A DNA stretch of 64,000 nt from Spirogloea muscicola (taxonomy: Eukaryota > Streptophyta > Zygnematophyceae > Spirogloeales > Spirogloeaceae): positions 651,796 to 715,795 of the forward strand of contig WELB01000016.1 of NCBI GenBank assembly GCA_009602725.1, given 5' to 3'. The notes beneath the pieces were generated by a model. It was not told where the DNA came from. It saw only the letters and a program-made list of their open reading frames with translations, and did not search any database. Position 1 is the stretch's first letter; each line of letters begins with the position of its first letter. Both the position numbers and the translations under genes were made by a program. Shown piece by piece: positions 3,639 to 62,850 of this stretch.

Positions 3639-3690
3639 GGGGTTTAGGGTTTAGGGCTTAGGGCTTGGGATTTAGGGTTTTGGGTTGATG
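3639..3690 (+). repeat. Interstitial TTTAGGG (plant telomere-type) run
   Basis: Consecutive GGGTTTAGGGTTTAGGG, with degenerate TTAGGGCTTGGG and TTTAGGGTTTTGGG neighbours, lies 200-260 bp upstream of the phytochrome start. TTTAGGG is the telomere repeat of most green plants. Short runs in promoters are known as telo-boxes. The degeneracy says it is internal and not a chromosome end. Confidence 0.75.
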
Positions 3691-3897
3691 GAACTACGTA
3701 GCACGGCGTGGCCAAGCGCACTTGGGAGCTGCTGGCGAGCAGATGTTAGAGGTGGAACTGAACAAGCTTGCGCTGCTTCGCCTGTCTTGCAGTCTGAAGA
3801 AGAGCCTGCATGGCTGTCACCGAGCCAGGCAGATGGCCCTTGTAGTCAAAGGTGACTGGCACCTGGCACAAGGCCGGGTGCATTGGAGGCAGCCAAG

Positions 3898-6800
3898 ATG
3901 GTTGCAGATGGCACCGTGCCACCAGCGCTGGCCACCGTCCAGGGCCATGGGGGCCTACTTGTCGTTGACAGCAAGCACTACCAGGTAAGGTAGTTTCTGC
4001 TCTGGCTTGTGACCCCGTGTCAGATTGATCCTCAACGGGTGAAGCACTTCAGCTTCTGTTTCAGAAAGATCGAGGTGTTGAAGTGGTTTAGATCTTAGTG
4101 TGCACTGTGCACTTGCCTGATAGAGACCTGTCTCAAGATGTGCAATCGTTTATTGATTTCTAAGCAACTCCAATATTAACAACAAGGTTTGTTTTCTGCT
4201 GTCACACGACGTTGCTCATCCAGATTCTATCACACAGCAGGAATTTTCTCGATGTAGTCAAGGTTGCTGCCAAAATCGACTCTGCCAGCCTGGTGGGCAT
4301 GCCGCTGTTGGACCTCTTCAGCGAAGAGGTGTGCCAGCTTGACTGCAGATATTGCATGAGCCTCTTTATGACTGAAGACATTGTAATATTAGGTGACATT
4401 CATTGCTGCAGAGCAGGAGGGCATAGTCTACAGGGAGCAAGATCTCCAAGTAGCACAAGGGAGCGGTTGGCCCCTTATTGACTGAGTGCAGCTTAATGAG
4501 CGTCCTAATTTTGACCTAATTGCAGGCTTATGCCAAGATGCAGCTAGCATCCGTGCGGGCAGACGACCGTTCTAGCTCATGCCGCATCGTTGCAGAAGGA
4601 GGTACATCAAAGAGAATGAATCACTGCCTGTGTGCTTCCTGCTGCGCTTGGCATGCACTCGGATATGTAGCCTCCCAATGGCTTGAGTTGTACTCATTGA
4701 CGGGCACAGTTGGCATGCAAGTTTGCCTGTCTCCGCCTTCCTCATGAAACTCAGTGGGTCTAACAGCCACTAGCTGCGTCTTCATTGCAGAAAGCTCTTT
4801 CCTTGTCACTGTCAACCGAGCAGGCGGATATGTGTACCTGAGTTTTGAGGAAGACACTGAAGCAGGTCTGCTCTGACTACTACTCAGCTACAATCAGGTT
4901 CCAGAGGCTACTGCTGAGACCAGGCTGTCATGATGCCACGTCTATACGGCATGTACTTACTTGGAGCAAACGACGAAAGACATCCCTCCGTCTTTGACGG
5001 ATCCTGAACCACTGCCCTTTTTACTTCTCATTTAGCATTTGTTTTGTCTATCTAACAGCAGGTAAGAAATCTTCAAGGAAGCACGACGGGCGCACCTTCT
5101 CCACTCAATTGCCGTTCCATCAACTGGCAAGGGTCGCCATCGACCACCTCCAAGCCGTACCTGCACGAGATGTAGTTAGTCTTTGTGCAGTTGCAGCCCA
5201 GGTACATGTGGCCAAGACCACAATATCAGCTATTAGAGCTCATTTTGCCAAAATGAGACCTTGCTGATTGGGTTCTTACGCAGGCCAGATTGACATGACT
5301 CTTAAGATGCGTGCTTACCAACGTTGTCTGTCTGCGTGCTCATGGTTGCAGGAGCTCCGTAATATGGCAGGATATGACAGGGTTGTCATTGGGCAGGTTG
5401 CTGAGATCGGGGACACTGCTGAGGTCTTGAGACCGGACCTCCCTCTCAGTTGCCAACTACAATGTCACCTGCAACTAAGAAGGCCTTCAATCTCTTGCAA
5501 ATCACGAACCTGCAAGCACTTGCATCTGGAAGAACATGTCCAGCATATAGCACCTGGAGCAGTGCTCCCATAGGTTTGTACTGTGTGAGTGAGGAACGTT
5601 CAGAGGGTCCGACTAGACCACAGCCCAGGGATGGGCAGATTCTGCTCCTGTGCTGACTTGATAGAATTGCCTTCTCCAGGTCATTGCAGAGAGCTGCCTA
5701 AAATCACTCCCACCCTACAAAGGCTTGCACTTTCCAATGGCAGCCTTGCCCAAGGTTGTAACATCCTCCAGGCCATCTTTATCTAAATCAATTATCCTCA
5801 TGCATCTTGTCTACACATACGCTCCCAAGATCTCGTGTGACATATGGCAACAGTGAGTGAGCAGAATGTTTCTCACGGCTGCCATATTATTAGGTGTGAA
5901 TTTAGACTTACTCGACATGTGTTCTGATATTATGTTGTCACGTGCTCTCGTGTCATCCAGGACTGGGTGAATGGTCTAAGCAAAGCAGTACCAATGCGGC
6001 TCATCTACGGTGTCGGAGCTGCTCAGGTCCCACTAGCTGGGGAGAAGACTTTGTTGCAGTCCCTTTCCCTGGTCAACTCCCCTCTTGCAGGTAAGTTAGT
6101 GTCCGCTTAGTGACACGATTTGGGTTCCCATGTCAATACTGCAGGCTTTGCTCATGGTCCTTGTTGTTTGTGTCAATTGGCAGGAGTGGATGACAAGCAA
6201 GCCGAGGTCCTTGAGAAGCTAGGGGTCAAGTCTCTCCTTCTCATGCCCATTGAGATCCCCTCAAGAGGAATGCCAAAGCTGTGGGGCATTGTTGTATGCC
6301 ACCACTATCGATCACCGTGGCTCCTTCCCAACTCGCGGAGGGCCTCTTGCATCTTCCTGATTCAGGTACGTAGGTAGCCAAGTAGTCTGTGCCAGTCAAT
6401 GACGTTTGCATCCCTGAAGTAAAGGTTTGATGTCATGAGTGCGAGTAAATAACTCCAACACTTGGCAGGTGAGACATGACTTGCGAGCACGGTATCATCA
6501 CTATCTGTCCGCTGCTGCCGTCGACGAGTGTGACAAGCATCTCTTTGGTCCCGCAACCTGCAGGCCCTTAGAGCGCACCTAGAGACAGCAGTGAAGGCTC
6601 AAGAAAGGGCTGCCGACCGCCAGATGCAAGCCATGCAGACCAGCATCTGCGACCACCTCACATACCAAGTGCCCACCTCGCTGGTAGTTGAGAAGCCTTC
6701 CATCATCGACCTCATCCCCTGTGAAGGAGTTGCACATGTCCAAGGGTTGAGCATCGTCAAAGACGGATGTTGCCCAACAGATGCCCTGGTAAAAGAACAG

Positions 6801-7515
6801 ACCTCATTTGATTCTCATGATATTGACAATATTCCAAGCTGGTTCTTGATGTGTCTCGTGCCTGCAGTAGCAAAGGTTGCAGAATGTTACTTATGAGAAG
6901 CTTGGCGTCAGTAGAGCCAGGACAGCTGTTACTTCTCTGTGATAGATCGTGATATATTAGTCATGATGTAGTCATGTTCTCGTGATTAGCATGCTAGCAA
7001 ATACGACAACAGTCAACTGCGGATGCAAAGTGGCTGCTCTATCGTATAAGCACTTACTGTCCCATATTTTTATAGGGAAGTGCCCTTGTGTCCGTGGCTA
7101 ATGACGAGCTTCACTGCATGCACTATGGATGTAGCCAATTCTGAATTGCCTCTGCTCTAACGTATACATGGACTAGGGGGTTCAAGTATCAATTGAATCT
7201 ACTCTTTATAGTGCATCCCAGGCCTTTTTGTGAGCTTTTTTCAACTGACAAGCGCAGATTCTAAAGCTGACAAGGTGGGTGGAGGAGAAGAAGATGATGG
7301 TCGATGGCCTCTACACCGTCTCCAGCTTGAAGGCTGCAGGCTTCCCAGAGGCAGACCAGCTCCTGCGAGACTCTTGTTTGTGCGGCCTGGCAGTTGTGGC
7401 AATCTCTGAAGACGACCTTGCGCTCTGGTTCCGCAGACGTGAGAACAGCCACTTGGTGCTAGCCGCGTGTTTCTCAGAAGCTGATGGGAAGCAGATTGTG
7501 CAGGAGCTTGCATGG
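3898..7515 (+). other. Phytochrome photosensory module (PAS-GAF-PHY) lacking bilin motifs
   Basis: PAS: residues 14-24 read VQGHGGLLVVD, matching the IQPHG..L knot motif. GAF: residues 162-171 read ELRNMAGYDR, with the conserved YDR. Residues 192-210 read PPYKGLHFPMAALPK, where the family has GLHFPATDIPQ, so the DIP aspartate is missing. Residues 247-262 (NSPLAGVDDKQAEVLE) cover the place where plant phytochromes have the Cys-His pair that bonds the bilin; neither residue is present. LWGIVVCHHY, the next conserved block, is intact. PHY: residues 345-352 read TSICDHLT, followed by KPSIIDLIPCEG and ALWFRRRENS; the tongue motif PRxSF is not found. Family positions are from established knowledge; the absences are read directly but depend on the intron model. 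Confidence 0.75.
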
Positions 7516-10500
7516 GTACATATTGCGTAAACTAGGCTGCTCATGCTCTTGCTGTTTAACAGTGAGCTTAGTTGAGCTGAGCAGGAAGCTCCATTGGAGG
7601 TGTGGCAGGAATGGATGTTGTGAAGGACTGGGCATGGACACATCCAGCAGCCGCAGGTTCGCCGCTCATCCAAGCTGAGGCGTACCAGTCCTCAGAGGCG
7701 TCATCAGATGTCTGGACTGCAGCTGAGGTGGGTGGCTGCGGCTCAACTTGAGCCGTATGCTGTCTGAGTTGCTGCTACATGACACTGTGAAGGAACCGCT
7801 GCTACGTAACATTGTGAAGGAAGTCAGGGTCTATCAATGTCATGGTTGACTTGGAGCCACATTACTACATTGGTCTTGAAGTATTGCATTTGGCTAACTT
7901 TCAGAAGCTGTAAGCCATGAGCCAATATGAGGTATAAGCCAAGCAAGTTTCAAAGTATGCCACAATATTTGATTGCAGAAGTTGGGACTTAGCTAAGCAA
8001 TAGTTGCTGAGATGCAACAATGTCTTATCTACTCTGTAGCTCTATCCAGAGTAGATACTTGACTAGCTCAGTCTGCATTTCTTGGGTGCTTAGGTGAATT
8101 GCCTCAAAGGTCTACGGAAGATGGCTGATGATGCTCTTAAGGGCAATAGTGAGCCCATCAAAACCATGATGCTGGTAAGGCTAGAGGTGGAAGAGCTTGC
8201 CCATACACAACTATGCTGACGCCCAGGGTGAGATGATTTGTAATATGATGGGCGTCTTTAGATGTCTGCTTGTAAGGTACGAGATAGGATGTAATCCTTT
8301 ACATGTCCTTGCACAGTGCTCCTGTTAATAGACATTTGGCTGTTGTGTTTGACCATCTTTGGTCTACCTGCTTAGATCTCAAATGCACGTTGTCGGCACT
8401 TTTACTCTCATTCTGAAAGCAGCTGTACGTCGTGCTTCCACAGGTTCGACTGAACGAAGAGAGGCTGAAAGCTATGCAGGACTTGGCCATCGTGGCAAGA
8501 GATCTGACGCACATGATGGAGATTGCCAAGACTCCAATCCTCAGCATTAACGAGCACATGGTCCTTGTAGAGTGGAACCAGAGGCTGGCGCAACTCACCG
8601 GCAAACCAAAAGTTAGTCTGCCATAGCTTTGTCTGTAAACCGGCCTTGCATCTCTAGAGACTTGTGACAACAAGTGGACTGTCAACATTGCTTAGTAGCG
8701 CTTGGTTTACAACAAGCTGCTGCTCAATTTGCCCGCCAAGATAGATACACTCACAAGCCAACAGCATAGAGCTGATTCCAGCATTGAAGTATGCTGTCTT
8801 GCAACATGAATTTGGTTCTCAAGAGTCACTGTTGAGCTGTTCTGTGTGCAGGCTAGGGTGGTGGGATGCCATTTGGCCGATGTATTGGTACCGGACTGTG
8901 TAGAGTCTGTCATTGCAGTAGTAGAGAAAGTGCTGCAAGGAAACAACCAGGACCACTTGGAGATAAATCTGAAGAGGGTGCCAACCAATGGTACCTTGCA
9001 GAAGGGTCTTGCTGGTGCTAGTGGCAAAGATACAAGCCTGTCTATGCTGGAGTTGCAGGAGGACCTGCTAATACTCATGGTTAACATGGTTCCTCAGTGG
9101 GACTCTGCGAACAAGGTCATTGGTGTCAGCATCATTGGCCAGGTTACCATCTGCCTCCACCTTACTCCTCCTCTGTATAAGGGGATGATGGGGTGACGAG
9201 CTCCTTAGCCATCCCATCTTTGGCCTTAATTAGTATCCCTGCACCTTCACATTATTGCATGTCTCGGATATCTGAGAAGGCCTGTTCTCACCCGGCAGGA
9301 TGTCACTGAGCAAAAGCTGATGATGAGAAAGGCAGCTCTTCTTGATGGAGGAGTCAAAGGCGGTGAGGGAGAAGCAGAGAAACTTTCATACAAGAAGATC
9401 ATTGACAAGGCCACCTTGCCGATCTGGGGAGTCGACCGAGAGGGCGTCATCGTCGAGTGGAACAGTGCCATGGCAAAGACGTCTGGTAAGACTGGATGTT
9501 TTGTAGATAGTGTCCTGCATTTGTGCATACAGAAGAGGCAGAGCACCATCAGCATGTTGGTCATAGGTTCTCTATGAGGTGGTCTGGTACACCGTTATAT
9601 ATGCTGGCACTCTGCTAATGTGTTGCCAGGTACATGGTATGTACCTGGCACTGAGCTCTAGGGCAGGGTGCCCTTCACTTGCTGCGATGCAGCTCGGGTG
9701 CATGCTCTACCAAGCTCATGTATTCATCAGCTTCTTACAGCTCCTTATATGGCACAGGCATATCAAAGGAGCAGGCCCTTGGGAAGCAGCTTATGGGGGA
9801 TCTTGTGGGGTCCGAGAAGGTCCTGATGGTACCAGACAAGGAGATGCTGCTGTCCTTGGATTTTGCCTTGCAGCGGGCTTTGGCCGGGCACGAGACACCT
9901 CTCACTCACCTCAAGTTTGTCAACGATGAGGGTCGGCACATCGAGAGCCTGGTTAACATGACCACACGGCGGGACGAAGCAGGGAATGCCGTCGGTGTCC
10001 TATGCTTCATGCAGGACGTGAGCATGCGCAAGGCGGTGGAGAAGGCCAACGCTGTGAGGCTGGCTGCAGAGGCGGCTGCCGATGCCAAGTCGCGTCACCT
10101 TGCGTTCCTCTGCCACGAGATCCGCAACCCGCTGAACGGCATCTTGGGCAATATCACCTTCATGGAGGATACGACGCTCACGGAGGAGCAGCGGGAGCTC
10201 GTGGAGACGACAGCCACCTGCGGTCACCAGCTGGTCAGCTCTCCAGAACCCCAAATTTACTCATGCTAATTGGGCCTACGTTTGACCATGTTACTGAATG
10301 TCCTCAAAGATTCATGTGGTCGCTTTGGAGATTTACTTATCCTTATGATGGTCAACAATGTCATACCAGCGTCATGTCTTATTTTAATCAGGTCTACAGG
10401 TCAGTTCAAGCAGCAGAAAGAGTTGTATATTTGCAACTAAGCTGCAGACTTGTATGGGAAGGTGATTTTTGCTTGTGCAGAGGAAGATTGTGGAGGATGT

Positions 10501-13500
10501 GCTGGACATAAGTAAGATCGAGGAGGGCAAGACACAGCTTGAGTTGAAAGAGCTCAAGCTACAGAAGATTCTGAATGCTATTATTAGCCAGGTACGTGTA
10601 GTACATGAATTGTATGAGGAATTCCTTTGCTTATCCTTGCATTGACTCGCATATGCAGCAAAACCTGCACCTAGAAGGGACCAAGGATCACAAAGTGATG
10701 CAGCAGTTTGCACTTCCTTGGCAGCTGTCACTGGCTGTGGGCTCACCTATGTGGCGTTGTGCAGGTTGCGATTGCAGCGACCAAGAAGGGCTTGCAGCTC
10801 TTCAGCACAGTGGAGCCGAGGTGCCTGCATTGGCGGCCTCTCGGGGACGCCCCGAGGCTGCAGCAGGTGCTGTCCAACTTTGCGTGGAACACGATCAAGT
10901 TCACGCACACTGGGTATGTGGACATCCGCATCGCCATGCAGGAGCCAAGCGCCCCCGATAGCCGCGGCCGGACGTTTGCCAAGTTCTTGTTCAAGGTCAC
11001 AGACAGCGGGGAGGGCATCTCGGAGCCGTTGAGGCGACGGCTGTTTGAGGAGTACTCGACGGGCAACAAGACGAGCACGAGCCAGTACGGCGGCACCGGC
11101 CTCGGCCTGAGCATTGTGAAGCAGCTGGCGTACCTGATGGGCGGCGAGGTCAAGTGCCAGAGCCAGCCGGGCAAGGGCTCCACGTTCTCGCTGGACGTGG
11201 ACCTGCAGGTGCTGCCGGCCGGCACCAAGGAGCCCTCGCCCTTCTCGCACCTGCTGGACGAGCCGACGGCCAGCGACTCGCTCGAGAACAGCAGCATTGA
11301 GGACGAGGAGTTTGCATTCCCACTGCCGAGCAAGGCGGATAATGAGCAGGGGGCAGGCGAGCCGCCGTCCATGCCCAGTGACGCGCCCAGCTTGCAAGCC
11401 GGCAAAGCGCAGCCGGCTAGCGAGGAGGACGAGGACAGTGGACCTGACCAGATAAGGACGGCGCAGCAGCAAGAACCCGCAGCCGTGTCCCCAAGTCCAG
11501 CTTTGGCCGGCCTTCTGGAAGCCAAGCAGCACCTCGGCCGCCGCCGGTCCTTGAATGCCATGATGCTCGACGTCCTCCTGGGCCCCGAGGCCGGGAGGCC
11601 GGAGCCGGCGGCGCACCACCGCGCTCCGCCGCCGTTCTTCAGCAAGCAGCCGGCCAGCGTGGTGCCAGTGCTGGGCGCGTGGCAGCAGGCCGGCCGCCTC
11701 GGCAGCTCGCCGCCCCAGGCAGTGGACCAGCCACCACCTGCGAGCTCGGCCGACAACCGCCAGGTGCCGCCCCAGCCGCCGGCTGCTGCGCAGCCAGCCG
11801 AGCGGCCTGCGGAGCCGCCGATGTCTCATCACCAGCCGAGGCCGCTCGACGCCGAACCCCCGCCGTCACCTTGGCGCAAGCTTGAGCTGGCGGCTAAGCC
11901 TCAGCCTGCGAGAGCCATGGCACAGAATGTCGGCGCAAGCGTCCCCCCCCCGGAGCTGGACCAGGTGGTGCAGCGGCTGGCCCTGGCGTACGGCGACTCG
12001 TGGAGCGTCCGGGTGGTGCGTGAGATTGTGAAGCCAGGCGAGGCGGCAGTGCTCGCAGAGATCACGGTCGGCGCTGCAGCCCGCCAGCAGTGGGGGACGG
12101 CCAAGGAGGCGGCGGCGGCGGCAGCGGCGTCGTCGGGCCAGGGCGGCGGCGACAGCGGCGCTGCACTCCTGCCGGCGGCGACGGCGCGGGCCCTGGCGAA
12201 CGCTGCGCTGCTGTTCCTCCCCTCTGGCGGGCTGCTGGCTGCCGAGGCCGTGCACCAGCCAGCTGCAGTGTCGTCTCACTGGAGATCGGTCGCAGCGCAG
12301 GAGATGGCCGAGTCCGGGGCAGCAGCCGTGCAGGGCCGCGAAGCGCAAGCTTCGTCGACGCACGTGTCTCCTGTCAGACGGGCATTCGGTCGCTCTGGCT
12401 CTTCGCCGGCGCTCGCCGTGTACAACATTCCCGACTTGGCGCAGCCCAGTACTCCGATTGCAAGGCTGAGTCCTCGCGCTCCAGTGGAGAGGACGGCATC
12501 GCAGCAAGGTGCTAGTGAGCGGGAGCCCGCCAGCTCCCGGCAGCCGCTGGACGTAGGCGCTGTGGTGGGTGCGTCTCTGCATCACTCAGGGCCGGCGCAC
12601 GCGGCGTTGCTGACAGCGGCGGCAGCCAAGACGAGCTCTGGCGGTCAGCTTGCCGCCGACGTTGGCCTGAGGCCGCTAGCAGCGAAGCTCAGCACACAGG
12701 GTCCCATGCTGGCCACAGCAGACGCCGTGCTGGACGCTCCTCCGATGACGTCTGGGCTCGGGCAACTAGCGCCGCCGCTGGCAAGGTCGAGCTCTGGAGG
12801 GTCCTCCGTCTTCTTCCCGGCACCGCGTCTGCCGTCGTCGTCCCCGCCACCTCAGAGGCCCCAGCTCATCCGCAAGCTGCCATACGATATGTCCGTCCTG
12901 CCGTCTGTTCCTCCTTCATCCTGCGCGTCGCCTAGGCACGCTGCTGGCACCAATGCTGGAAGTGAGTCAGGGATTAGCAGCGCGTCGACCATTGCACAGT
13001 CCCCTGGTTCAGGTCCTTCCGGAACACGTGGCTTGAAGGTACGATAGCCTTCCGCTTTGCCTTCTCAATGTTTTGTTGTAGATTGACATCATTCATGGCA
13101 TGCCCTGGCATGTGTCAGCATTTTGTTCAACCGTGGCACCTTTGCCCTCCTATACTGGTAAATTCTCTCCATTTAAAGAGACGGGTCAATACTGTTATTG
13201 ATTGAGTGTTAGCTTGCCTATGCCAGGCAGTCAATGTTGGCGCGTGTAGTGAAGTGGTCATGTAGACGAGGATTTGGACATGCCTCATGATAGCTTTGCA
13301 CGTGACTTTGTGATCCTATGCAGGCCTTGGTCATTGACGATGAACCTGTCAATGTCATGGTTGTCAAGCGGGCACTGTACAAGTACAATCTTGACCCACC
13401 TCAACAGGGCAATGGCTCTTAAGTAGGGTAGATGCTTTTGGCTTTGAGATAGCTGCTTCTTTAGAAATACTGGGCTGCTGCAGTGCATAGTCCTCGATTT

Positions 13501-14352
13501 ATGACATACTCTTGCTGGTTGTTGAAGTCTGTGTGACAGTTGCAATTAGTGCACTGAGAAGTCGTTGGCTGTGTTCTTCTTACAGAGCCAACTTTGAGGT
13601 GGAGACAGGGGCAGATGGGACTGACGTGATCTGGAGGGTTATTGAGCTAGGAGAGAAGTTTGACGCTCTCCTCCTTGATGAGAGGTGAATACTGATGTAC
13701 TTAGTGTGAATGCTTCTCTCGCTATAGACTCTGTGTCCAGGCCACCTGGGCCGCACCGTGACTGTCTTCAGTCAGCAACATGTGTGTTCAAACGTATCTC
13801 ATATGAAGCAAAGATTTGCCACGTTGTAGTGACGTTTCCTGCCAACTGTGAAGGTTGAAAGTCATGAATGGCTCTGAAGCTTGCCAGCTGGTTCGACGAC
13901 ACGAAGTTGATTGCAACCTGCCAGAGGTGCCCATCATTGGCATCTCCGCAAATGTGGAGGGGGCTGACCTAGTAATGTCATCAACTCAGCCCGACAACTA
14001 TGGGGGTCGTGCATTTGGCTGATGTTATGAGCATGGCGCCAAGATATGTCACGGTCTCATGAGGAAATTACTCAATGTCAAGCTTGTACTTGCTTGGGAC
14101 AAGAAGGCCCTGCAAATGGCTTTCTGCCTCTTCTTGTGCTGACTATGGCATTGTCACTTGCAGAAAAAGTACGCCATGTCGGGTTACTCGGCTGTCATGG
14201 GGAAGCCAATCAATGTGCGGACAGCTGGCGAACGGCTTCGCAAATACTTGATGACATACAAATCGCCCTCACCTGAAAGACGAGCTGAACTGAAGCAAGG
14301 AGACATTTTGAAGGCTAAGAAACAATTGGATGGTTTTGTTGTGTTCGTATAG
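3898..14352 (+). CDS. PHY: Phytochrome-type hybrid histidine kinase (degenerate bilin pocket)
   Basis: A 23-exon model is phase-consistent throughout and gives about 1859 residues: 3898-3984, 4224-4328, 4526-4601, 4791-4865, 5062-5201, 5352-5423, 5680-5754, 5961-6090, 6184-6365, 6564-6788, 7258-7515, 7626-7727 (start uncertain), 8094-8174, 8444-8611, 8852-9142, 9299-9485, 9758-10233, 10481-10591, 10765-13038, 13324-13382, 13586-13684, 13854-13971, 14164-14352. The domain order is PAS, GAF, PHY, PAS, PAS, HisKA, HATPase, a roughly 620-residue linker and REC. Green-lineage phytochromes are red/far-red sensors that move between cytosol and nucleus. Here the kinase side looks competent and the chromophore side does not. 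The start is the first ATG after an in-frame stop; a short open stretch at 3794-3840 could be an earlier exon. No tandem neighbours form an operon-like context. Confidence 0.85.
8444..9990 (+). other. Tandem PAS domains of the phytochrome
   Basis: Two PAS repeats are seen. The first (residues 537-689) contains AKTPILSINEHMVLVEWN and QRLAQLTGKP. The second (from about 690) contains ATLPIWGVDREGVIVEWN and, after the exon join at 9485/9758, FVNDEGRHIESLVNMTT and AVGVLCFMQDVS. The pattern of an internal aromatic VEWN and a C-terminal GVxxxxQDVS is typical of PAS cores. Two PAS domains before the kinase are the arrangement of green-lineage phytochromes. Confidence 0.75.
10070..11220 (+). other. 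Histidine kinase core (HisKA and HATPase_c)
   Basis: The H box reads FLCHEIRNPLNGI, with the phospho-accepting His at about residue 871. The dimerisation helices continue in IVEDVLDISKIEEGK. The ATP lid side has an N box with RLQQVLSNFAWNTIKFT (Asn about 989), a G1 box DSGEGI (Asp about 1027) and a G2 box GGTGLGLSIVKQL. All catalytic signatures of an active histidine kinase are therefore present, unlike in land-plant phytochromes, where the His is lost. Confidence 0.85.
11221..13038 (+). other. Long low-complexity linker between kinase and receiver
   Basis: About 606 residues, all in one exon (10765-13038), rich in Ala, Pro, Ser, Gly and Gln, with acidic Ser/Glu stretches near its start and no introns although the rest of the gene has many. 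Near residues 1235-1290 a denser patch reads LDQVVQRLALAYGDSWSVRV and then EAAVLAEITVG, with more hydrophobic order than its surroundings. The rest looks disordered. Hybrid kinases usually have linkers of tens of residues, so this is unusually long. Confidence 0.7.
13324..14352 (+). other. Receiver (REC) domain of the phytochrome
   Basis: Four exons encode the response-regulator fold. LVIDDEPVNVMVVKRAL carries the acidic pair (about D1710-D1711). LLLDERLKVMNGSEACQL carries the phospho-acceptor Asp (about 1756). PIIGISAN has the conserved Ser, and MGKPIN has the conserved Lys (about 1811). All residues needed for phosphotransfer from the His are present. A C-terminal REC is known in algal phytochromes and was lost in land plants. 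The stop is at 14350-14352. Confidence 0.85.
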
Positions 14353-18155: not shown

Positions 18156-19215
18156 CTCCAATGCTGATGTCAACAACCATGGGACATCGACTTGACCTGC
18201 CAAAGCTTTTGTTAGGCGGCACCTTGGTCGAGCACAAGAGACATAGATGTAGGAAGGTGTCTTTGTGCTGGACAGAGGCTACTCTAGGGTTCAGGAGGAT
18301 ATTTGGGAATATCAGCTGGGGGATTTGCGCCTCATCGTCACTCAGCTGCATGCAAGTGAGCCTTTGGCTGTCGGTTGACATGCAGCCTGTCAAAGACTGT
18401 ATACCTCGGGCAGATAGAATTGCAAGGAGTCTGACCCCATCTTTTACAAAAACTTCCTCTGTGAACGTGCTGCATTCTTTCACAAGATCTTACTGCTTGT
18501 TGTCATGCTTCTTCTTCAGCATGCATTCCACAATTTATTATCTTAGCACGGCATTCCATGACCTTAGAAGAAGGCAAGGGGGGTTTCAAGAAGGTTGCTA
18601 TCACATCGGCCCTATAGTCGCAGCTTCGCAACTCTTGCATAGACCTACGGCATAGCAAAGGACGCCTGAAAGCACCAAACAAACCGCGTCCACATGTAAA
18701 ACGAATGTCGGGCTTCAGCAACAGGCTGGACTTGACACCTAACGAAAGCACTTCGCCCACGTTGCATGAAGCCATGCGCGAGCGCCCCTCGGCGAGGGAG
18801 TGGTGTGTATGACGAGCATTTGGCCAAGAAGGAGACGCAGCTCGGAAAGGCGAGGGCTGAGAAAACCAGCCCACATCGACGTCAGGATGGACAGACGGTG
18901 GTCTCCGCTGATAGGGGCGCCTCGCCGGGCGATTCAAAACGTCGGGCGGCGCCAGGCAGCCGGGGGAGGCTCGCGCCGGGGCCTTCCATCTGCGCGCGGG
19001 GAGTGGCGAAGCCCCCGATGTCTGGCGGAGAGGGGGTGATCCCCTCCCTGCACCTCTCTGCTACGCCTTCAGGGCAGCTCTTCGACCGGATGTCAACCTG
19101 ATCGCGGGGAGGGGGGGCGGTCGGCCTCTCGCCTCTCGCCTGGTCGGCCTGGCGGTAGGGGAGACGCTCCTCCCTCCCTCCTATCACCAGCAGCCGCCTT
19201 CTTCTCCTTCCCCTA
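18156..19215. other. Intergenic region upstream of the MYB-CC gene
   Basis: A minus-strand frame (17971-18483) is open for 170 codons, but its C-terminal third is reversed LINE tail. The remaining part, with VRLLAILSARGIQSL, is not recognised. From about 18770 the sequence becomes GC-rich on approach to the MYB-CC start, which suits a promoter and 5' leader, but no specific element stands out. Confidence 0.3.
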
Positions 19216-19221
19216 CCGTGC

Positions 19222-19735
19222 ATGCATGCCCCAAGGGCCCCCGAGCCCGCCGGCGCCGCCGCCGCAGCCGGCGCCGCCGCCAGCGCCAGCGCCGTCGCCG
19301 CCGCCGCCGCCGCCACCACAGCCGTCCTCGTCGGCGAATGCCCTGCCAAGCCGCTGGTAAGCAAGCACCGCCGCAGGCCCGTCTCAGAGGCGGCCCGCCT
19401 GTTTCTCAGAGGTGCTGCCCGGGAAGGTGGTGAAGGTGGTGAAGATCTTGAAGCAGCGGAGCAGCATAGCCACCCCGCCGCCGCCGCCGCCGCCGCCGCC
19501 GCCGACGACTCGGCCGCCGGCGAGCCCGAGCTGGCGCCGGTTACCAAGCCACGCGCCGGTCGCCGAGCCAGCACCCGCCTCGCAATGGGCGGTGGCGACC
19601 GAGACGAGGCGGCGGATGACAAAAGTGCGCTGCCTGACGCAGCGGACGGCAGCGGCGGCAAGCGTTCGCCACCCGCGGCCGAGCCGCCGACGAAGAAAGC
19701 GGCGCATGCCAGCATACGGACCGGCCCCGTTGCAG

Positions 19736-19780
<45 letters not shown>

Positions 19781-21111
19781 ACGGCGACCGCAGGGGAGAG
19801 ATATGGCAAGCAGAGGAGAATGGCGGCGGCAGCGGGGCCCCGCCAGCGCAGGCGGGAAGCTGCAAGTCGCCTATCAAGTGGACTAAGGAGCTCAAACATG
19901 TATTCAAGAAAGCGGTGGATTTGCTTGGAGGCGCCGCAAGTTAATTTGCCCGGCTTGTTTTCTCGCTGCCGCCCTGACTCGGCCCCCGCCACGCACGCCG
20001 CCGGCGCACCGCGCGCTCACGCCTGTCGCCGCTGGGCTACTGCAGATGCGACGCCCAAGGGGGTGCTGACGGTCATACTTAAAAACCGGAACGTGAGCGT
20101 CGAGGGCATCACGTATCAGCAGGTCGCGAGCCATTTGCAGGTCAGCATTCCCAGCTCGCTCTCTCCCCACCACGGCAGCCGCCGGATCGCCGGCCTGCTG
20201 CAGCCTGCATGGCAGCTTGGCAAGCCACCCGGCAGGCAGTGGGGGCTGGGGGTGAGCCTGGTTCTTTTGCGAGCACTCATGAAGCTGTTGACGTCCCTGT
20301 GGATACTCTGCAGCGGTATTGCGCACTCCAGGCGTCCAGCCCTGGTGACTCTAGGCCTGGGTGAGACACGCCCCCGCGACCACCCCTCTCATAGCTTGCT
20401 CTTCAAGTTCCGCTAAGCACTACACATCATGTTGACAGCAAGTGTCTTTGTCACAGTCAAATTTAATGCTTCCGGGGCTGTCAAGACTACAGCAGCAGCA
20501 GTGAGATTGCTGCTTGCTGCCGATGCTCTCCCGGCCCTCTCCACGCTGGTGTTGATGCCTTGCCGCCACAACCTCACCTGGACTGTGTCTGCACCTCTGG
20601 TTTTGTGGCCCTGCCAGCTGCGGGCAGTGTACACTTCACACTGGGGAAGCGATGCAGATTCAAATGGAGATGCAGCGCCAGCTGCACAAGCAGCATGAGG
20701 TACAAAAGCCAGGCGTGACATTGCAAAAGATTTCAATCCTTGGCAAGCTATATCAAGCTGTCCGCTCGAGCAGTTGCCTGTGCGCTTGTCTATAGTTCAG
20801 GTTGGGCGGCTGACCCCTCTGAGGGCTGTCCGTCTGCTTGTGGTGTGCCGCAATAGATGCTGTTGCAGCTTAAGGCGCAAAGTAAGATCCTGGAGCAAAT
20901 TATCTTCCACCAACAGCGGGCTGCGAGCTCACTGTTGGCAATCACCTCCACTGGCACTCCTGGCAGCGGCGGCGCCCTGAGTGTGGGGGGAAAGTTATGG
21001 GGTGATTTACTAGATGCGGGTATTGGCAGCGGCAATGCTGCCGCTGATATAGTCTCCAGAGTTACTGGCTTAGAGGAGAGGTTTGACGCCCTCCTTGTCG
21101 CCCTTACGTGA
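19222..21111 (+). CDS. GARP/MYB-CC transcription factor (PHR1/PSR1-like)
   Basis: Exon 1 (19222-19939) encodes an Ala-rich, likely disordered N-terminus and then KSPIKWTKELKHVFKKAV. After a phase-compatible join, exon 2 (20046-20140) gives NATPKGVLTVILKN and ITYQQVASHLQ. Together these are a GARP/G2-like MYB domain (W..EL...F..AV..LGG..ATPK.VL...........V.SHLQ). A short exon at 20314-20360 (RYCALQASS) supplies the residues after SHLQ. The exon ending at 20699 has EAMQIQMEMQRQLHKQ, and the last exon (20857-21111) continues LQLKAQSKILEQIIFHQQ. This is the LHEQLE coiled coil that defines MYB-CC proteins. Members such as PHR1 and Chlamydomonas PSR1 bind P1BS-type sites and control phosphate-starvation genes; that role here is inference. 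The joins between 20360 and 20657 are not settled. Confidence 0.8.
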
Positions 21112-23490: not shown

Positions 23491-24397
23491 TCATGCCACG
23501 CTCTTCGACGGACAAACCCGCAGGCCCATCAGGTCCAGTTCACAAACGAGCAAGGGGTAAGCCGCCATGACTTCAGCTGGAGGTCCAATGATGTGTGTAT
23601 CATCGGCGTAGGAGGGGAAGAGGAGGTCTGGGTGTTGCCTCTGGGTGCACCGTATAGCCCGACAATGTGCCAAGGCAAACAGGATTGGGCTAAGGGGATC
23701 CCCCTGGCGTGTGCCAGAAGATGACCACGGCATCTTCCACGACTCTCCGGCTTGCCACAGCAGCCGCCCTGGGCGGCCATAGGCCATGAGGAAAAAGGGT
23801 ATAAGTGAAGGGAAGTGGTTGCGCAGCTCCTCCATGATGACGCTGCGCTCCACTGTGTTGAAGGCGTTACTGATATCCAGCCCAAGGACCATCGTTGAAG
23901 GGTCCACGTCGAGAGCTGCGCGGATGCCGTGGACGAGGGCCTCCGCCCCGCAGGACATGCCAGCACCAATTGGTGGGGTAATAGGTGGCTGGTCAGTTGG
24001 GGTTTCAGCTCGCTGCACACGGCCTTTGATGCCAGCCGCATGATAACCTCCGTCATCGCAATGGGTCTCATACCGCCTGTCGACTTCGCAAGGGCCAGCA
24101 GGTGGCTGGAATTGAAGCGTCGGCAATGCGTGGTGGAATGGCAGCCCTGGCGATGTGTCGGCAGGTGGACAGGAACAGGGAGAAGCTCCTCTCATCCCCA
24201 TCAAGGAAAAGGTCCTGTAGGTGCTCAAAGAGCCATCCAGAAGGGCCTCCAGACACCATCCGGGGGGCTTTGGTCAGGGCCACACGGAGCGCTTCTGCCG
24301 ATAGGTCAAGAGGACTGGGGAGCTCGCCAGCCCAGGGCTCGAGGGGGTGTTGTGGAGGGGGGTTGGAGCTGTCGCAAGATAGCCTCCGTGGCGTCAT
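23491..24397 (-). pseudogene. LINE reverse transcriptase domain (frame-broken)
   Basis: Fingers and palm motifs of a non-LTR reverse transcriptase are spread over three frames: LTKAPRMVSGGPSGWLFEHL (24397-24068), RPIAMTEVIMRLASK (24071 onward), then LGLDISNAFNTVERS, GTRQGDPLSPIL and PSYADDTHIIG in the 24228-23491 frame. The YADD box is intact, but the frame changes mean no single polymerase could be translated from this copy. Confidence 0.75.
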
Positions 24398-60358: not shown

Positions 60359-60739
60359 GCAGCGGTTATGTGCCAGGGCTTCTCACAGCCCTTGCCCCCA
60401 TTGGGAGAGCCACTTCTTCTTCACAGCCCTTGCCCCCATTGGGAGAGCCACTTCGTCCTTCCCCTCCCTGGTACCCTTTCTCCGCTTGAGGTACGGTCAG
60501 CCCGGCGACCTCCTCTGGCTCTGGCCAGGGGACCCACTTCCAGGAGCCTAGCTTCTCTGACCTGAGGTTGCTTAGCAGGGGTTACTGAGTAAGACGTAAG
60601 CTGCTTTGTTTCTTGTAGTGCTTGTTTTTCTGAGCGCTTCCCCTGGCCCCCTTCTCGTACATTGTTCCTTACATTCTGGGCTGGCTTTTCCAGCCCCTAG
60701 CCTCAATGGGCGAGCCCTTCCTTCTGGAGGACAGGGGGT
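60359..60739 (+). repeat. LINE 3' tails in tandem
   Basis: The phrase CACAGCCCTTGCCCCCATTG with GGGAGAGCCACTTC occurs twice 50 bp apart (60378-60420 and 60425-60455). A LINE end with GACCTGAGGTTGCTTAGCAG lies at 60563, and a GGGCTGGCTTTTCCAGCCCC hairpin at about 60678. The right arm of the palindrome stops exactly at the first of these. Confidence 0.65.
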
Positions 60740-62850
60740 GACCAAGTGGAGGTCCTGCAAGCGGGCACGCGGCAAGGGGACCCCCTCGCCGGCTTCTCCT
60801 CTGCGCTCGCTCACCACCGGGCTCTGCAGGCTACCGCGGCGGCAGATCTAGCGGTCCTACTGCCCACCTTCGCTGACGACACCACCATGGTCGGCCCTTT
60901 GGAAGACGTGGCGGCCGCCTTCGTCAACTTCGAGCTGGGCACCCTCGGCCTGTCCACCAGGGCGTCGAAGTGCACGGCTTGGTCCCCCTGCGGCCTCCCA
61001 TCCACCCTGGCGCTGCCCCCCGGATGCCGGACTCCTGCAGACGGCTTCACCCTCCTGGGGGTCCCCATCGGCGCGCCGTCCTTCGTGGGTGGGCAGCTGC
61101 GAGCCCGCCTCGAGGAGCACCTCCAGCCTGCCGCCCGGCTCCCCGAGCTGCATGATATGCAGCTGGCTCTGGCCATGTTGACCAAGGCCATTGCGCAGAG
61201 ACCCCAGTATCTGAAGCGGGCCACCCCGCCGTCCCCAGGGGCGCTGGCGGCGTACGCGGGTTTCGACGCAGGCATGGTGACGAGCCTGCCGGCCCTGGTC
61301 CGCCACCAAGGCTTTCCCCAGTGGGGGAAAGGCTCGCCCATTGAGGATAGGGGCTGGGAAAGCCAGCCCAAAAAGAAGGAACAAAGTACGAGAAGAGGGG
61401 CCAGGGGAAGCGCTAAGAAAAGCACAGAAAAGAAACGAAGCAGCTACGAAGCACTCAGTAACCCCTGCTAAGCAGCCTCAGGTCAGAGAAGACGGGGTTC
61501 CTGGAAGCGGGTCCCCTGGCCTGAGCCCAGTCGCCTGCCGCCGGGTGTGCTGCCAGGGGAGCTGGCCGCTCATGTTCTGCGCTGTTACTACGGCGGAGAG
61601 CGGACAGCGGCCCACGACCGCCTCCGGGATGCAATGCATGGCATCCTAGTGGAGGCTGGCTTCTCGGTGGCCGCGGAGAACTCCGCCGTCATGCCGCTTC
61701 AGCAAGAGAGAGGGGCGCGCGGTGTTCCATTCCAAATGTAGGCAACTATAATAAGCTCTGACTTGGTAAGAGATGCCCCTGGTGCTCATGCGAGAAATGA
61801 CATTCATTGCACCGCACTGAAAGCCAACACTTAGAGAGTGTTAAGGGGCTGCCATACCTACTACAGACTAAGTTCGGGACTTCTGTACATGTTGGCGAGT
61901 ATTGAAATACAGGAAACCTCAGCATGCAGACATGCTGCAGATCACTTGGTTCGCCGTCTTCGAAAGAGGTCGGCACATTCTGGACAGTGCCATTTCCCCT
62001 TCGGCTTTTCTCGGATCCCTACACACTCATAGTGATACCATTCTATCCTGCACTGAGATTCCATCTTAATGAAATTGAAAGGGAGGCCAATTCTAGCCTT
62101 ACAAATGTCCTGTTAACTGGGTAATGAGCTGGCTAAGGGGGACACTAATATCCCCGAGTGAGCACATGCGTATCTGACAAGCTATACTGAGGCGCCAACC
62201 CACCACCACGGAAGCCATTAGCCTGGGCTAATGCACGACCAGCGCGCTGGTGTATCGCGAGTGCCTGAAAGCGCTGTAGACTCAATGATAGCCGCATTCT
62301 ATAGCATGCAACGATGGTTTGCGGGACACTAGAATGCCCCAAGCCAGCAAAGGGATTACGGGGTCCACGCACGTCGCGTAGACCTTGTGGCCGCCCCACA
62401 AGCCGGCGGGCCACGTCTTATCCTGGACGTGGTGATTACAGACGCAGACGATCGCTCACACCCAGCCGAATGTGCCATCAAGGCTGGATATGCGGTCGCC
62501 TGCGCCGCTCGAGCTAAGGAGCTCAAATTTGCTGATCATCCGCGGGAAGACGAGTTCTTCCCGCTGGCTATCGACACGCATGGGGCGTTGGGCGCTCGGT
62601 GGCTCGACCAGCTCGCCCGCCACGCCATCGTCCGCCGCTTCCATGGGGAGCCGGTGGACTTTCATTCAGCCGGGTTGCCAGCGCAGGTGTACCGGATGCG
62701 CTTGGCCGTCTCGCTGCAGAGGTCTATGGCCCGCGCGCTGCACCTGCGTGCCGGCAGGGCCTTCGCTGCTGCCTCTGGCTCTGGCCAGGGGACCCACTTC
62801 GAGGAGCCTAGCTTCTCTGACCTGAGGCTGCTTAGCAGGGGTTACTGAGT
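60740..62850 (+). mobile_element. LINE with RT and endonuclease parts, carrying nested LINE insertions
   Basis: Plus strand: GTRQGDPLAGFSSALAHH, LLPTFADDTTMVGPL, FTLLGVPIGAPSF and MQLALAMLTKAIAQRPQYL form one open frame to about 61318. A minus-oriented LINE tail (61325-61490) interrupts it. The zinc/endonuclease part follows (LAAHVLRC, AHDRLRDAMHGILVEAGFSV), then a second minus-oriented LINE piece (61740-62345). The end reads RLILDVVITDADD, DEFFPLAIDTHGALGARWLD, YRMRLAVSLQRSMARALHL and SFSDLRLLSRGY before the stop at 62846-62848. The 5' end is truncated within the polymerase. Confidence 0.8.
61740..62345 (-). mobile_element. LINE 3' end inserted in the LINE above
   Basis: The minus strand encodes YRMRLSLSLQRFQALAIHQR, AGRALAQANGFRGG and YSLSDTHVLTRGY with a stop near 62145. 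It is followed (62140 down to 61740) by a long 3' untranslated part that includes a short Cys/His phrase CNECHFSHEH, probably chance. The phrase GGAGGCCAATTCTAGCC at 62080 returns at 63266, in the tail cluster to the right. Confidence 0.6.

Follow-up and report, generated by a model that had tools for sequence, protein, structure and literature searches.

A phytochrome-type hybrid histidine kinase from Spirogloea muscicola lacking key bilin-pocket residues

A single gene on a stretch of 64,000 nucleotides from Spirogloea muscicola contig WELB01000016.1 (the complete stretch analysed, called the window below) encodes a protein of 1847 residues with the domain order PAS-GAF-PHY-PAS-PAS-HisKA-HATPase-long linker-REC. 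We propose that this protein is a green-lineage phytochrome that is probably no longer a bilin photoreceptor, and that would act as a light-blind hybrid histidine kinase. It is a phytochrome in the domain sense, as the PAS-GAF-PHY order is recognized by Pfam. Of the features that make a phytochrome a photoreceptor, the attachment Cys, the Asp of the DIP motif, the His of the Cys-His pair and the PRxSF motif are all lacking. The features of a hybrid histidine kinase, i.e. a phospho-acceptor His, N and G boxes, and a receiver with its Asp and Lys, are all present. An earlier reading of this DNA (the original prediction) had interpreted it as encoding a phytochrome-derived histidine kinase, and the combination of a ruined pocket with a kept kinase and receiver fits that interpretation in the tests made.

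The gene lies on the + strand at window positions 3898-14352, and consists of 23 exons and 22 GT-AG introns, ending with a TAG stop codon. The model was obtained by reading the exons by similarity and then joining them in frame. The introns vary from 93 to 469 bases (mean 223 bases, 46% G+C), in a window that is eukaryotic in appearance (57% G+C, GT-AG introns). All acceptors but two end in CAG; one of the exceptions, that of exon 22 (GTGAAG), is a weak edge. The extent of 3898-7727 given in the original prediction covers only exons 1-12, the sensory half, and the gene ends at 14352. Every Pfam domain called in the gene scores above its own curated cut-off, namely PAS_2 (27.9 bits), GAF (31.8), PHY (49.0), PAS (82, in two stretches), HisKA (66.9), HATPase_c (83.5) and Response_reg (48.2). 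Seven single, isolated N occur in the window (at 2963, 30179, 42176, 45461, 49731, 58097 and 63642), none of them within the gene. The gene and its parts, with the basis of each assignment, are the following:

3898..14352, + strand: whole gene, phytochrome-type hybrid histidine kinase (exon model, translation, Pfam)
3898..4865, + strand: exons 1-4, N-terminal PAS (PAS_2), the model having no Cys before residue 83 (Pfam, model)
5062..6365, + strand: exons 5-9, GAF domain with ruined bilin pocket (Pfam, alignments)
5680..5754, + strand: exon 7, GLHFPMAALPK at the DIP position, with Asp307 to Ala and Ile308 to Leu (alignments)
5961..6365, + strand: exons 8-9, NSPLAGVDDKQAEVLEKLG at the Cys-His helix, with Arg352 to Ala, Cys357 to Lys, His358 to Gln and Tyr361 to Val (alignments, splice variants)
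6564..7438, + strand: exons 10-11, PHY core, last residues ALWFRR (Pfam, alignment; edges up to WFR also by spliced-profile alignment)
7585..7727, + strand: exon 12, degenerate part of the tongue (SSIGGV...THPAAAGSPL...VWTAAE), both the 5' edge of this exon and the exon 11 donor being ambiguous (alignment, joins)
8094..9485, + strand: exons 13-16, end of the PHY helix, the first of the internal PAS domains and the beginning of the next (Pfam, alignment)
9758..10591, + strand: exons 17-18, remainder of the second PAS, and the HisKA domain, whose phospho-acceptor is His859 in FLCHEIRNP (Pfam, alignment)
10765..13038, + strand: exon 19, HATPase_c with N and G boxes, followed by a low-complexity linker of about 600 residues (Pfam, alignment)
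13324..14352, + strand: exons 20-23, receiver with acidic pair, Asp1744 (LLLD), Ser (GISAN) and Lys1799 (GKP), and the TAG stop codon (Pfam, alignment)

The ruined bilin pocket lies in the GAF domain. The peptides quoted in the original prediction are present, in frame and in the order given there. As had been claimed, GLHFPMAALPK replaces the stretch with the DIP aspartate: its gap-free alignment with GLHYPATDIPQ of plant phytochrome B (PhyB) places Ala at Asp307. The Cys-His pair is lost as well, as NSPLAGVDDKQAEVLEKLG aligns without gaps to GSTLRAPHGCHSQYMANMG of PhyB, with Lys at Cys357 and Gln at His358. Alignment to Arabidopsis PhyB by HMMER revealed further changes in the pocket, i.e. 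Ile308 to Leu, Arg352 to Ala, Tyr361 to Val, Tyr276 to Gly and Tyr303 to Phe; the wild-type Tyr276 was taken from chain 7rzw, since the PhyB chains 9irk and 9iuz have His at this position. One of the two propionate arginines is therefore lost (Arg352) and one is kept (Arg322). In a 2025 structure paper (PMC12182589), homologues of the tyrosine pair, of the two propionate arginines and of the Asp are said to interact with the chromophore or to line the pocket around it, and this also applies to homologues of the second His, the Asp-bonded Tyr and the last His; equivalence to the numbering of that paper was set by the match of R288 to R322 stated there. No attachment Cys of the bacteriophytochrome type was found in the drawn exons, whose first Cys, at residue 83, already falls within the PAS domain. 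In this model the N-terminal attachment Cys is missing, unless an upstream exon has been overlooked. As judged from these alignments, the losses beyond the cysteines make bilin binding unlikely.

Alternatively, a bilin could still be bound, either non-covalently or via an unusual residue, and the protein would then be a photoreceptor of unusual colour. Residues that could serve this purpose are Arg322 and His403, both kept, as are Pro304 and Pro309 of PhyB, and four cysteines of the model (Cys156, Cys191, Cys292 and Cys309) are located in the GAF domain. In addition, the section of Li et al. 2015 (PMC4525182) on PHYX1, a non-canonical phytochrome of charophytes, leaves open a non-conserved binding site for that protein. 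However, the DIP Asp, the conserved His, Arg352, Tyr361, Tyr276 and PRxSF have been lost jointly, and homologues of such Asp, His, Arg and Tyr residues are chromophore contacts in the cited part of PMC12182589. We consider a retained bilin distinctly unlikely. The original prediction had named three options for the protein, of which binding of something else or independence of light is favoured over non-covalent bilin.

The tongue of the PHY domain is less straightforward. It had been claimed that no WGG or PRxSF motif follows ALWFRRRENS. The loss of PRxSF stands, as this motif occurs in no forward frame of positions 3800-8300, but the loss of WGG depends on the alignment: HMMER pairs the Gly-Gly and leaves the Trp in a gap, while MAFFT (with inserts dropped) places the Trp and Gly of ..DWAWTHPAAAG.. 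at these positions. A contiguous W[GA]G is not found in the gene model. The frame after ALWFRRR is open (ENSHLV...), but this part could also be an intron. A donor at 7439 fits equally well and joins SSIGGV...THPAAAGSPL...VWTAAEV, a segment that HMMER aligns along the PhyB tongue. With this donor THPAAAGSPL aligns with MHPRSSFQAF of PhyB, which makes the tongue look degenerate rather than just missing. There are 134 possible in-frame joins at the junction of exons 11 and 12, with PhyB scores of 127.3-151.2 and no clear winner; the join used in the model scores 147.4 and is not the top one.

The weight of the missing PRxSF motif can be estimated from 17 bacterial PHY-domain loci in seven genomes, which were reached via DIP-selected loci. 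PRxSF is found in 16 of these 17 loci and W[GA]G in all 17. Even among five weakly scoring loci (L101-L105), whose PHY scores of 40-52 bits are low like the 49.0 bits in the window, PRxSF is kept in four. This suggests that the motif survives strong divergence, which makes its absence from the gene notable.

Could a normal photoreceptor be concealed by an unseen splice or a sequence error, the gene model being wrong? The splice donors of the gene are indeed weak and varied. We therefore shifted introns 5-12, one at a time, by at most 150 bases at either end, allowing GT or GC donors. DIP, WGG and PRxSF are absent from all 893 open in-frame splice variants of exons 5-13 obtained in this way (including the drawn model), and a pair of the Cys-His type is absent from its stretch in 270 variants of the three surrounding introns. 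These figures bear out the earlier claim that the loss of the motifs is not due to one misplaced exon edge, albeit for variants covering a single intron each. The pattern D[IVLM]P has only two readings in the forward frames of 3800-8300, in introns 4 and 6. An independent spliced-profile alignment placed introns 5-10 exactly where they had been drawn by hand, and ended at WFR, before the tongue. The alignment to PhyB is gap-free through both the DIP and the Cys-His regions, and none of the seven N of the window falls inside the gene. A wrong gene model is extremely unlikely as the explanation. One candidate for the lost Cys-His pair was considered and rejected: a GCH in intron 7 (5874-5894, SHGCHII) precedes exon 8, while the motif belongs after exon 8. 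If taken as an exon, the stretch from the nearest AG to the nearest GT (29 bases, located by eye) would break the frame, and we regard this GCH as a chance occurrence.

The distribution of the losses was evaluated at columns with 90% or more conservation across 88 bacterial references, with PhyB as control for a working receptor. For 80 of these references the retrieval pattern itself included DIP, and their DIP conservation is by construction; the other eight are plasmid-borne and were fetched without such a pattern (8 of 131 matching records were taken), and the DIP Asp is present in all eight. In the bilin-wrapping stretches of the GAF domain (PhyB 303-326 and 345-374) the gene keeps 5 of 23 columns and PhyB 16. 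The gene keeps 11 of 14 columns in the remainder of the GAF domain (PhyB 14 of 14) and 8 of 10 in the PHY core (PhyB 9 of 10). We read this pattern as a loss that appears to focus on the pocket, with the gene presumably still making protein.

The latter point bears on the possibility of a decaying pseudogene, which could account for the many conserved residues lost and for the ragged tongue. The 524 sensory codons, however, contain no stop, compared with 22 and 24 in the other two frames (with exon edges chosen open), and the frame is kept across 22 GT-AG introns. Moreover, the catalytic residues of kinase and receiver are intact, and so are the 8 of 10 conserved PHY-core columns mentioned above. 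A pseudogene is therefore very unlikely.

Several points weigh against the reading of the gene as a light-blind kinase. First, among columns common to the bacteria and PhyB, 11 of 16 are lost in the bilin stretches and 3 of 14 elsewhere in the GAF domain, but the resulting p = 0.014 is limited by the fact that these stretches were drawn after the losses had been seen. When only the chromophore neighbours named in PMC12182589 are counted, the losses are 5 of 7 compared with 9 of 23 (p = 0.20). A cruder count, which includes columns where PhyB differs, had yielded p values of 0.0017 and 0.26; recounting made the first of these weaker (0.014 instead of 0.0017) but brought in a favourable control. 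Secondly, loss of DIP alone is, to judge from the bacterial loci described above, not rare: a DIP-type motif is found in 11 of the 17 and was not found in six, i.e. the short locus L100 (491 residues open) and the weak L101-L105. Thirdly, Arg322 and His403 leave room for a carboxylate ligand, bilin included. The openness of the sensory frame is partly by construction, as the exon edges were picked to keep it open. Finally, the nature of the input signal is guesswork.

The output half retains the residues required of a histidine kinase with a receiver, as had been predicted. FLCHEIRNP is intact and aligns to a PhyB segment that has Gln at the phospho-acceptor position, where the gene has His. 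The motifs that we take to be the N box (NFAWNTIKFT) and the G boxes (DSGEGIS, GGTGLGLSI) are kept. In the receiver an acidic pair, Asp1744 in LLLD, GISAN and Lys1799 in GKP are found, the Asp and Lys aligning to those of solved receivers. The receiver Asp lies 885 residues downstream of the phospho-acceptor His, with the low-complexity linker between them. This linker in exon 19 (window 11200-13038, about 600 residues) is rich in Ala, Pro and Ser and has a single Pfam match, which is below threshold and by chance.

Comparison with solved structures points to the green lineage. Of 102 distinct Protein Data Bank sequences that matched the sensory half, the best 60 are headed by plant PhyB (176.7 bits), compared with 76.8 bits for FiDCB, which we take to be the best-scoring non-plant chain (the listing is without organism names), and 76.4 bits for Cph1. 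For the PAS-PAS-kinase half 37 sequences matched, again with PhyB as the best (208.9 bits), and the best kinase not named a phytochrome scored 135.7 bits. Since plant PhyB and PhyA are the top structure matches for both halves, and plant phytochromes outscore the others in each, the protein is by these scores most like a green-lineage phytochrome, with a kinase-active output plus a receiver. The internal PAS-PAS pair and the plant-like kinase region expected of green-lineage phytochromes are present. No relative was confirmed in the first scan of a prokaryotic genome collection with PhyB, and one viral contig scan confirmed no algal relatives.

The canonical plant PhyA and PhyB are the closest solved sequences for both the sensory and the PAS-PAS-kinase halves, but they bind bilin and have lost the kinase His and the receiver, while the reverse applies to this gene. 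A bacterial phytochrome, RpBphP4 of Rhodopseudomonas palustris, has been described as a bilin-less, redox-sensing kinase. The charophyte PHYX1 comes closest by description: according to the section of Li et al. 2015 (PMC4525182) on this protein, it lacks all conserved bilin cysteines and keeps the kinase His, and some members have a C-terminal receiver. These features (no bilin Cys, kinase His, REC) are all present in the gene, which could thus be a plain PHYX1 of a streptophyte alga, or else a receiver-bearing second phytochrome of a Mesostigma-like alga, one of the two phytochromes of M. viride being reported with a REC domain in the relevant part of PMC7027972. On the other hand, the PHYX1 passages discuss only the cysteines and are silent on Asp, His, Arg and tongue motif, and in the present gene the Asp, His, Arg, two Tyr and PRxSF are lost too; in addition, a linker of about 600 residues precedes the receiver here, PHYX1 having been compared by description only. 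We give such an identity an even chance. It competes only with the novelty of the gene, not with the mechanism of a light-blind kinase: the kind is already known from PHYX1, and the gene is a further case, with a loss more thorough than these passages describe. Prasinophyte phytochromes share the PAS-PAS repeat, the kinase and, in most, the receiver, but are described in the same paper, in the part on these algae, as photoreversible receptors. The moss proteins PHK1 and PHK2 have the order PAS-PAS-HisKA-HATPase-REC in green plants, but differ in lacking GAF-PHY and in PAS domains that, in the account given in PMC6137987, do not cluster with phytochrome PAS domains. PHY is listed as absent from five genomes of the UTC clade in the relevant part of PMC8209157.

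For the light-blind kinase the following mechanism can be envisaged. The GAF-PHY scaffold would still fold and dimerise, and the kinase would phosphorylate the phospho-acceptor His at the expense of ATP. The phosphate would then be passed from the His across the linker to the Asp of the protein's own receiver, and onward via a phosphorelay. As the pocket is ruined, direct light input is unlikely, and the input would be something other than light absorbed by the protein itself. The simplest candidate would be pairing or dimerising with a canonical phytochrome. A small molecule or redox signal might instead act through the GAF or internal PAS domains, or Arg322 and His403 might hold a different ligand. 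A bolder version, tentative and on the improbable side, is that the whole phytochrome has been kept under selection with its chromophore chemistry removed. Its GAF pocket would have been repurposed for another ligand, or it would be an obligate partner converting the light signal of a canonical phytochrome to a His-Asp phosphorelay, possibly in a lineage thought to be without phytochromes.

The start codon of the gene is preceded, at a distance of about 200 bases (3640-3686), by 6.7 copies of a TTTAGGG-like repeat of the plant-telomere type. At 1317-1775 on the + strand lies part of a zinc-binding dehydrogenase (PF13602, 48 bits). At 19159-20416 the peptides SPIKWTKELKHVF... and ATPKGVL...VASHLQ resemble, by eye, a split GARP/SHAQKYF DNA-binding domain, with no Pfam match in the two open reading frames (ORFs) examined in this stretch. 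Domains of this type serve as the output of B-type response regulators. At 23491-24273 on the - strand there is a fragment of a reverse transcriptase (RVT_1, 38.2 bits), and retrotransposon-like ORFs were recognized at 60701-62848 (+ strand) by eye only, two of those at 60-63 kb having been examined with no Pfam match. Rfam and tRNA scans of the window gave no matches.

If the pocket is gone and the kinase is active, this gene separates signalling by the phytochrome scaffold from the sensing of light. The question of whether PHYX1 proteins bind bilin would also gain a clear, testable case, as the losses found here exceed the cysteines named in the PHYX1 section of Li et al. 2015.

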